Shown here: piece after piece, positions 47,638-51,822 of the stretch
How the letters are laid out: each line of letters starts with the position of its first letter
Numbering within the stretch: position 1 is the stretch's first letter
Source: Serratia symbiotica
GTDB lineage: Bacteria > Pseudomonadota > Gammaproteobacteria > Enterobacterales > Enterobacteriaceae
NCBI GenBank assembly: GCA_011754105.1
Contig: JAAKDF010000006.1
Coordinates: 1-64,000, forward strand
Direction: 5' to 3'
Length of the DNA: 64,000 bases
Notes under the pieces: generated by a model
What the model was told of the DNA's origin: nothing
Database searches by the model: none
The model's input: only the letters and a program-made list of their open reading frames with translations
Translations under genes and position numbers: made by a program

Positions 47638-50025
47638 TCAATCCCTCAAGGATGCTTGGAATCGCTGTCTTAAGGCCTCTACACATTTTGCAACGGTAGC
47701 GGCTATCTCCTCTTCTTCAAGTGTACAAGCTGTGTCCTGCAATATCAGGCTGATAGCCAGGCTCTTATAACCTTCTGCTACTCCCTTGCCACGGTACACA
47801 TCAAACAATTCTACGTCAACTACTTGATTTGCGCCAAATTTCTTACACTCTGCCAATATATCTGCTGCGGCGACGTTTTCAGCCACCACTACAGCGATAT
47901 CACGGCGGTTTGCCGGAAAGCAAGAAATCTCCCGCGCCTGAGGCACGGCGCGCCTTGCGACCTTGTCCCATTGCAATTCGAACATCAGGGTGCGTCCATT
48001 AAGATCCAGTTTACGCTCCAGTTCTGGATGAACCATACCAATGTAACCTACGCATTCGCCGTATAAATAAATTGCCGCACTTTGCCCTGGATGGAGTGCT
48101 GGATTGGCCACAGCCCAGAACTGAATTTCGGATAATTTACCAGTTAACTCAAGGACAGATTCCAGTTCCCCTTTTAAATCATAGAAATCGACTGTCTTAC
48201 ACGCCAAATCCCAGTGCTTGTCGTAGGTATAGCCAGCGATCACCCCCGCCAGCATGACATCCTGGCGGATACCCAAATTTGCTGAAGTATCAGGCACAAA
48301 GCGCAGGCCGCTTTCGAACAGGCGCAGGCGAGTTTGCTGGCGATTCTGGTTATATACCACCGCAGAAAGCAGGCCAGTATACAACGACAGTCGCATCACT
48401 GACATGTCCGCCGAGATTGGGCTGGGCAGGATCAGTGCTTCCTCGCCAGGGTGCAATAATGCCTGCACTTTAGGATCGACAAAGCTGTAGGTGATCGCTT
48501 CCTGAAAACCGTGATCAACCAGCAGAGTCTTTACACGTTCCAGTGTTAGATCAGCCTCAGGGTGTTTAATCATCACCAGATCGCCGCGCACCGGCACGTC
48601 TGGGATGTTGTTGTAGCCGTAAACACGTACTACTTCTTCAACCAGATCTTCTTCAATTTTCATGTCAAAACGCCAACTTGGAGGAACTGCCAACCAGGTG
48701 TCTCCTTGATCGGTAACCTGGCAACCAAGGCGACGCAAAATATCGCTGACCTGATCGCTCGGCACTACATGGCCGAGCAGGCGATCCAGCTTCTTGCGGT
48801 GTAGTTGAATAGTCGTATGCTTGGGCAGTTCATTTTCATCAGTGACATCAATCACTGGGCCAGCCTGGCCACCACAAATGTCAATCAGCAGGCGGGTGGC
48901 ACGCTCCATCGCTTGGTATTGCAGCGCGTAGTCCACGCCACGCTCATAGCGATGAGAAGCATCGGTTTGCAGACCATGGCGACGTGCACGGCCAGTGATC
49001 GACAGCGGATTGAAGAAGGCACACTCCAGCAGCACGTCCTGAGTCTCATTATTTACCCCGGAATACTTGCCGCCGAAGATTCCCCCCATTGCCAGCGCTT
49101 TATGATGATCAGCAATCACTAAGGTGTCAGTATGCAATTTGACTTCGTTACCATCCAGTAACGTCAAGGTCTCCCCTTCTTCTGCCATACGCACCACGAT
49201 GCCGCCTTCGATACGTTTCAGATCAAAGGCATGCATAGGCTGTCCAAGCTCCAGCAACACGTAGTTGGTGACGTCGACCACCGCATCAATGGAACGAATG
49301 CCACAGCGGCGCAGTTTTTCACGCATCCAAAACGGGCTGGTAGCCTTGATGTTTATGCCTTTTACCACACGGCCGAGATAACGCGGGCATCCCTGAGGCG
49401 CGTCAACACGAATGGGTAGCGTAGTATAAATTGTAGCGACAACCGGACTCATATCCGGTTCGGTTAAGGCCATTTTGTTAAGCACGCTGACATCACGCGC
49501 AATGCCGATAATGCCCAGGCAGTCGGCGCGGTTTGGCGTGACGCTAATTTCGATGGTGTTGTCATTTAGTTGCAGATAGTCACGGATATCGGTACCGATC
49601 GCCGCGTCATTTGGCAGTTCGATGATGCCATCATAGTCGTCGGAAATACCCAGTTCAGAAAACGAACATAGCATGCCTTCTGAAAGTTTGCCGCGCAGTC
49701 TAGTTGCCTTGATTTTAAAGTCACCCGGCAGTATCGCACCCACGGTAGCTACTGCCACTTTCAAGCCAGCACGGCAGTTTAGTGCACCGCAGACGATATC
49801 CAGCAAGCGATCGCCGCCAATGTTGACTTTGGTGACGCGCAGTTTGTCGGCGTTAGGATGCTGGCTGCATTCGACCACTTCGCCCACCATTACGCCGTGA
49901 AAGGCACCAGCGACCGGTTCTACCCCATCTACTTCCAAGCCTGCCATGGTGATTTGGTCGGACAATGCTTCGCTGCTGATGGCTGGGTTTACCCACTCGC
50001 GCAACCAGAATTCACTGAATTTCAT
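47638..50025 (-). CDS. pheT: Phenylalanyl-tRNA synthetase beta chain
   Basis: 795 residues, same as E. coli. Domains in order: N-terminal EMAP/tRNA-binding OB fold (about 40-150; [19 protein letters not shown]), B3/B4 editing domain (about 210-395; [18 protein letters not shown]), B5 (about 400-475), the class II-like core (about 490-680), and the C-terminal ferredoxin-fold anticodon domain (about 700-795; [12 protein letters not shown]). Partner of PheS, 14 bp downstream of it. Confidence 0.97.
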
Positions 50026-50039
50026 GTGATATTCCCGCC

Positions 50040-51071
<1,032 letters not shown>

Positions 51072-51201: not shown

Positions 51202-51232
51202 AAAAAAAGAAAAGCCTCCACAAGGGAGGCTT
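51202..51232 (-). terminator. pheST attenuator terminator
   Basis: On the minus strand AAGCCTCC-CTTGT-GGAGGCTT is followed by TTCTTTTTTT. Upstream, GGAGGCTTGCGCG (about 51259-51271) can pair with the first half of this stem (CGCCTAAGCCTCC), giving the alternative antiterminator fold known from E. coli pheM-pheST. The RNA elements are preserved even though the leader peptide frame is not. Confidence 0.9.
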
Positions 51233-51277
51233 AGGCGCTACTTTTCGTTTCTTTTCTTACGCGCAAGCCTCCTGAAA

Positions 51278-51321
51278 TCAAACGCTAAAGCAAAAAAAGA
51301 AGCGAAAATAGCTACATACAT
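51278..51321 (-). pseudogene. pheM: pheM leader peptide, frameshifted
   Basis: E. coli PheM is [14 protein letters not shown], whose Phe codons sense charged tRNA-Phe. Here ATG 51321 starts MYVAIF and one base is then missing before GCTTC. Restoring it gives RFFFCFSV and a TGA at 51278, the expected length. As written, the frame runs on as ASFFALAFDF... to a TAG at 51238, 27 codons in all, past the control codons and up to the terminator stem. The lesion is clear; a rescued product would need ribosomal or polymerase slippage. Confidence 0.85.
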
Positions 51322-51337
51322 GGATTGTATTACCTTA

Positions 51338-51380: not shown

Positions 51381-51414
51381 TCAATACTTATAGCTATAAA
51401 AGATGAATAAAATA

Positions 51415-51437
51415 AGAGGGGGCATCATGCCCCCTCT
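51415..51437 (-). terminator. Terminator after rplT
   Basis: AGAGGGGGCAT pairs with ATGCCCCCTCT around a minimal loop and is followed on the minus strand by TATTTTATTC. It lies 11 bases past the rplT stop and separates the infC-rpmI-rplT transcript from pheM-pheST. Confidence 0.85.
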
Positions 51438-51447
51438 TTTGACTTTA

Positions 51448-51822
<375 letters not shown>

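Follow-up and report, generated by a model that had tools for sequence, protein, structure and literature searches.

Repeated frame loss in the pheM leader of Serratia symbiotica and its relatives, with the RNA switch upstream of pheST kept

Leader peptides are usually regarded as fixed reading frames. A window of 64,000 nucleotides from Serratia symbiotica (the whole stretch of DNA analysed here) raises the question of what becomes of an attenuator when this frame is lost, as its pheM leader, upstream of the pheST operon, lacks one base. Does such a leader still sense Phe? Below, G000 is the genome under study and the other G-numbers are compared genomes.

The element between rplT and pheS is a true pheST attenuator with a pheM leader. 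The gene order on the minus strand of the window is rplT (51448-51804), which lies upstream of the attenuator, the pheM leader, pheS (50040-51023, 327 aa) and pheT (47638-50025, 795 aa), with all three genes intact. A search with Rfam covariance models matches the Phe_leader family (RF01859) to positions 51205-51327 of this strand at 66.5 bits (E 9e-10), above the gathering cut-off of 55 bits, and the position, 3′ of rplT and immediately upstream of pheS, is the one expected for this family. A MicX sRNA match from the Rfam search scored far under its cut-off and was discarded. No sigma-70 promoter for the pheST leader passed a simple scan, and the promoter is left unplaced. The infC gene of the window starts with ATT (52702-52700, minus strand; ATTAAAGGCGGA), a rare start that is linked to IF3 autoregulation in E. 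coli. The pheM-pheST attenuator is described in Escherichia coli in a passage of PMC11802643 that cites Springer et al. (1985). The two systems share the location upstream of pheS, an ORF with Phe codons, a long stem, GGAGGC and a GCCTCC terminator with its T-run, whereas the leader of G000 is read in a shifted frame for 27 codons and lacks a stop over the antiterminator segment.

The leader of G000 opens at the ATG at 51321, behind a conserved AAGGT (51332-51336, minus strand) that is presumably its ribosome-binding site, and runs for 27 codons (MYVAIFASFFALAFDFRRLARKKRNEK) to a UAG (51321-51238, minus strand), where relatives have 14-codon homologues. An alignment of 30 genomes of the genus locates the lost base in a run at 51305-51308 (minus strand), which is T4 in G000 and T5 in relatives (ATTTTCG vs ATTTTTCG); adding one T to this run restores a 14-codon PheM, MYVAIFRFFFCFSV-stop. 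A second run, T7 at 51292-51298 (minus strand), is unchanged in G000, T6 in G027 and G028 and T8 in G020. The missing base and the 14 codons recovered by adding it are thus as the sequence-only reading had them, as is the end of the uncorrected frame by the foot of the terminator stem: the UAG (51240-51238) ends 5 nt ahead of the stem (51232-51212). The stop that RF01859 leaders usually carry after 14-15 codons, just before the antiterminator segment, is absent from G000, where it is codon 28. When shifts were simulated at one site of the intact G026 leader (after codon 6), -1 gave 27 codons and +1 gave 12; the length of 27 codons is dictated by the RNA itself.

The frame has been lost more than once. 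Among the five genomes of the S. symbiotica-like clade (G000, G026, G027, G028 and G067) only G026 (3.6 Mb) has a 14-codon PheM (MYVAIFRCFFCFSV). Leaders of 27 codons are also found in G027 (1.9 Mb; MYVAIFRFFFALASDLRRLARKKRNEK) and G028 (2.5 Mb; MCVVVFRFFFDLASDFRRLVHKKRNEN), where in both cases the T7 run has become T6 and the T5 run is unaltered, and G067 (2.4 Mb) has lost the leader ATG (ATT instead) along with further changes. A tree built from 2,046 aligned residues of five unbroken genes nearby gives ((G000,G027),(G026,G028)) with support of 98-100, and G067 as sister to these four on a long branch (support 94-100). Three separate -1 events are needed, because G026 is intact, G000 and G027 lost different bases and the tree has this topology. 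Loss of mismatch repair was considered as a cause of the T-run losses and rejected, as each of the five genomes has a mutS and a mutL free of stops; the mutL of G028 matches as two parts of a single open frame.

The 27-codon frame was not found in free-living Serratia, a comparison that the sequence-only reading had named as a test: 25 of the 26 Serratia outside the clade have a 14-codon leader with a near-identical peptide, and one has 12 codons. In larger genomes of other genera the leader has 14-15 codons in 13 of the 14 that were read. Since the full-size G020 has a 12-codon leader, with its T8 run, and G033 (5.2 Mb, a free-living size) a 21-codon PheM in which UGA has become UGU and the usual stop is lost, the pheM frame is not absolutely required even in full-size genomes. 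Leaders are shortened, shifted or without an ATG in G079, G107, G123, G157, G163 and G175 (0.8-3.1 Mb), and farther small-genome enterobacterial symbionts have lost leader and antiterminator and retained the terminator. Scanning a collection for terminators of the S. symbiotica type returned unrelated bacteria only; near relatives may be missing from that collection.

The attenuator RNA is preserved, as had also been noticed from the sequence. GGAGGC (51267-51272, minus strand), the 5′ part of the antiterminator, is intact and pairs with the GCCTCC of the terminator. Both the Rfam structure and the computed fold contain segment 2, the 3′ strand of a long stem that pairs with leader codons (51237-51260, minus strand), and the intrinsic terminator stem-loop AAGCCTCC/GGAGGCTT (51212-51232, minus strand), whose GCCTCC/GGAGGC pairing is intact and which is followed by an intact T-rich tail (51202-51213, minus strand). 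The 120-nt leader RNA of G000 folds 2.7 sd better than shuffled sequences. Substitutions per site amount to 0.033 in segment 2, 0.018 in the terminator and 0.06-0.09 in the flanks, differences that are statistically weak because the element is short; the stretch from GGAGGC to the terminator has 4 substitutions in 120 compared positions. The Phe run has about 4 in 60 by eye, its computed value of 0.150 being inflated by gap placement in G000. The lower substitution in the 3′ RNA parts, small as the numbers are, is consistent with selection that acts on the RNA switch and only slightly on the peptide. The clustered Phe codons are kept as well: codons 6, 9 and 10 of G000 precede GGAGGC (ORF nt 50-55), two further Phe codons being 14 and 16, and those ahead of the antiterminator in G027 and G028 are 6, 8, 9 and 10.

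We folded each leader with a ribosome at every codon, its footprint reaching 9-16 nt beyond the first nucleotide of the codon in the A site and the upstream RNA either blocked or free; the folding is at equilibrium and takes no account of how fast ribosome and polymerase move. Antiterminator and terminator are computed to be mutually exclusive in the G000 leader. In the intact leaders of G026 and G003 the antiterminator forms at most Phe codons and the terminator at the stop. GGAGGC of the intact leader starts 5 nt past the stop codon and is covered by a ribosome standing there, but not by one held up at the Phe codons, which leaves GGAGGC able to pair with the GCCTCC of the terminator. G000 is much like intact G026, with an antiterminator probability of 0.83-0.98 at F9 and F10 for all footprints tried, and of only about 0.35 at F6 for small footprints. 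In G027 the antiterminator forms at codons 6-10, and in both G000 and G027 the terminator reaches 0.99 from about codon 14-16 to 27, the stop excepted. The terminator is weakened only when a ribosome sits at UAG28, its probability then being 0.10 with a 12-nt footprint and 0.99 with a 9-nt one. G028 switches weakly, its antiterminator being already weakened by other substitutions, and the +1 leader of G020 is predicted to retain the antiterminator with a ribosome at its own stop codon in most upstream-blocked settings, not with the upstream RNA free. The idea that the ribosome now passes the antiterminator region whether or not Phe is in supply, put forward by the sequence-only reading, is not supported by these results: Phe codons 6, 9 and 10 still lie upstream of that region, therefore a Phe-starved ribosome should still stall where needed, and the modelled switching is that of an intact leader.

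Our preferred interpretation, held with even confidence, is that the locus would be an ordinary pheST attenuator whose frame has drifted by -1 in a T run, its on/off logic retained and its basal level possibly raised. Because a poly-U run encodes Phe in all three frames, UUU being a Phe codon in each of them, the sensor would tolerate a -1 shift; owing to the U-rich Phe tract, every shifted leader still has three to four Phe codons ahead of the antiterminator. Under a shortage of charged tRNA-Phe the ribosome would stall at Phe 6-10, GGAGGC would be free to form the antiterminator and pheST would be read; when Phe is plentiful the ribosome would cover GGAGGC and the terminator would form. What would have changed is the last step: with no pause at a stop over GGAGGC the ribosome would run 13 codons further and, should it wait at the UAG, may cover the terminator foot. 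In E. coli, longer ribosome occupancy at leader stop codons strengthens attenuation and termination (PMC5373646), which predicts a somewhat higher basal pheST level for G000; by this analogy, basal expression may plausibly have changed in amount. The frame loss is best read as near-neutral, and would have been fixed in reduced symbionts through drift or because selection weakly favoured more pheST. The suggestion that a symbiont might shed this feedback, made from the sequence, survives in part: relaxed selection is plausible and the independent events are replicates of it, whereas a loss of Phe sensing is unsupported.

It is possible, albeit unlikely, that the frameshift uncouples pheST from the Phe supply altogether, with attenuation dead and expression constitutive, whether by termination or by read-through. 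There is indeed no longer a stop over GGAGGC, a ribosome at UAG28 does mask the terminator foot at the 12-nt footprint, and the stop-occupancy results imply that removing the stop should weaken attenuation. However, the Phe codons and the switch elements remain, the folding model still switches and the 3′ RNA elements are better conserved than the flanks; G033, with its free-living genome size, is likewise without the usual stop.

We also think it improbable that the leader is simply decaying, with the terminator as a fixed brake and Phe sensing irrelevant to fitness. Decay of this kind is seen elsewhere, the start codon, Phe run or antiterminator being gone in G067, G163, G107, G157, G175 and others while the terminator stem persists in 8 of 8 such leaders read, and because the farther small-genome symbionts have lost leader and antiterminator, pheST regulation may be fading in G000 too. 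Yet the start codon, presumed ribosome-binding site, Phe run and GGAGGC of G000 are all unbroken. Nor is the terminator needed to end the rplT operon, since rplT carries its own terminator-like stem at 51414-51438.

An error of sequencing or assembly in a homopolymer is very unlikely. All three losses do fall within T runs, but the runs are short (T5 and T7) and three separately assembled genomes would need like errors within the same 45 nt. A check of the five genes next to pheM (6,135 nt) makes such an error less likely still, because they carry no frameshift: pheS, pheT, thrS, infC and rplT each give one unbroken match in all compared genomes, and all of their 18-21 homopolymer runs of at least five nucleotides are whole in each shifted genome. 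Losses in the pheM runs number 3 of 6, against none in the runs of the neighbouring genes (Fisher p ~5e-4). Polymerase slippage at the T run, giving mixed transcripts that restore the 14-codon peptide in part, is hardly credible: a review (PMC5009743) reports frame rescue in insect endosymbionts where poly(A) runs are long, the runs here are T4 and T7, and no slippage product of the kind proposed from the sequence is needed to restore sensing, as the new frame keeps its Phe codons and the modelled structures switch.

Other amino acid leaders of the clade provide a comparison. Both hisL and trpL have kept their frame in G000, G026, G027 and G028, and in G000 they are followed by hisG and trpE, respectively; these leaders cannot slip harmlessly because a shift would lose their His or Trp codons. 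We hold, with somewhat less than even confidence, that Phe attenuators are frame-robust in general: a slip would keep the sensor and the frame may drift repeatedly in symbionts, where His and Trp leaders cannot shift. As a separate observation, trpL of G026, G000, G027 and G028 has a single Trp codon (GWH), against two (WW) in G023 and G020.

The pheL-pheA attenuator is found by the same Rfam model, and its leader likewise codes for Phe. In G000, pheL (contig 9, locus L064, about 640-760) is in frame (MIRTHFFSSFFFTLP), has lost the 3′ arm of its terminator and is not followed by pheA; the flanks are what we take to be a bamD-like gene and a convergent corB-like gene. With the frame kept and the terminator arm lost, this is the reverse of the kind of decay seen in pheM. 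The 3′ arm of the pheL terminator is also missing in G026 and G027. In G028 pheL is apparently shifted near its start (ATGATCCCCGCACACC), and no Phe-rich short ORF was found in that region.

Leader-peptide control has been seen to erode in S. symbiotica before. Passages of PMC4122931 on the biosynthetic operons of strains SCt and SAp report eroded amino acid leader regions (thrL and others); those passages mention neither pheM nor a frameshift with the RNA switch retained. Buchnera is said to be without attenuation (PMC3091783). Judged by their titles, the papers retrieved on pheM, pheST and leader peptides include none on symbionts. What appears to be new is the repeated loss of frame with the RNA switch kept, the retained logic being a prediction of the folding model.

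If regulation has survived all three of the independent -1 shifts into this one 27-codon frame, they would constitute a natural experiment on the robustness of a leader frame. Repeated, independent frame changes separate, in natural sequences, the roles of the peptide frame (sensing codons and a parking stop) from those of the RNA. The pheM case also bears on which regulatory step goes first as a symbiont genome shrinks.
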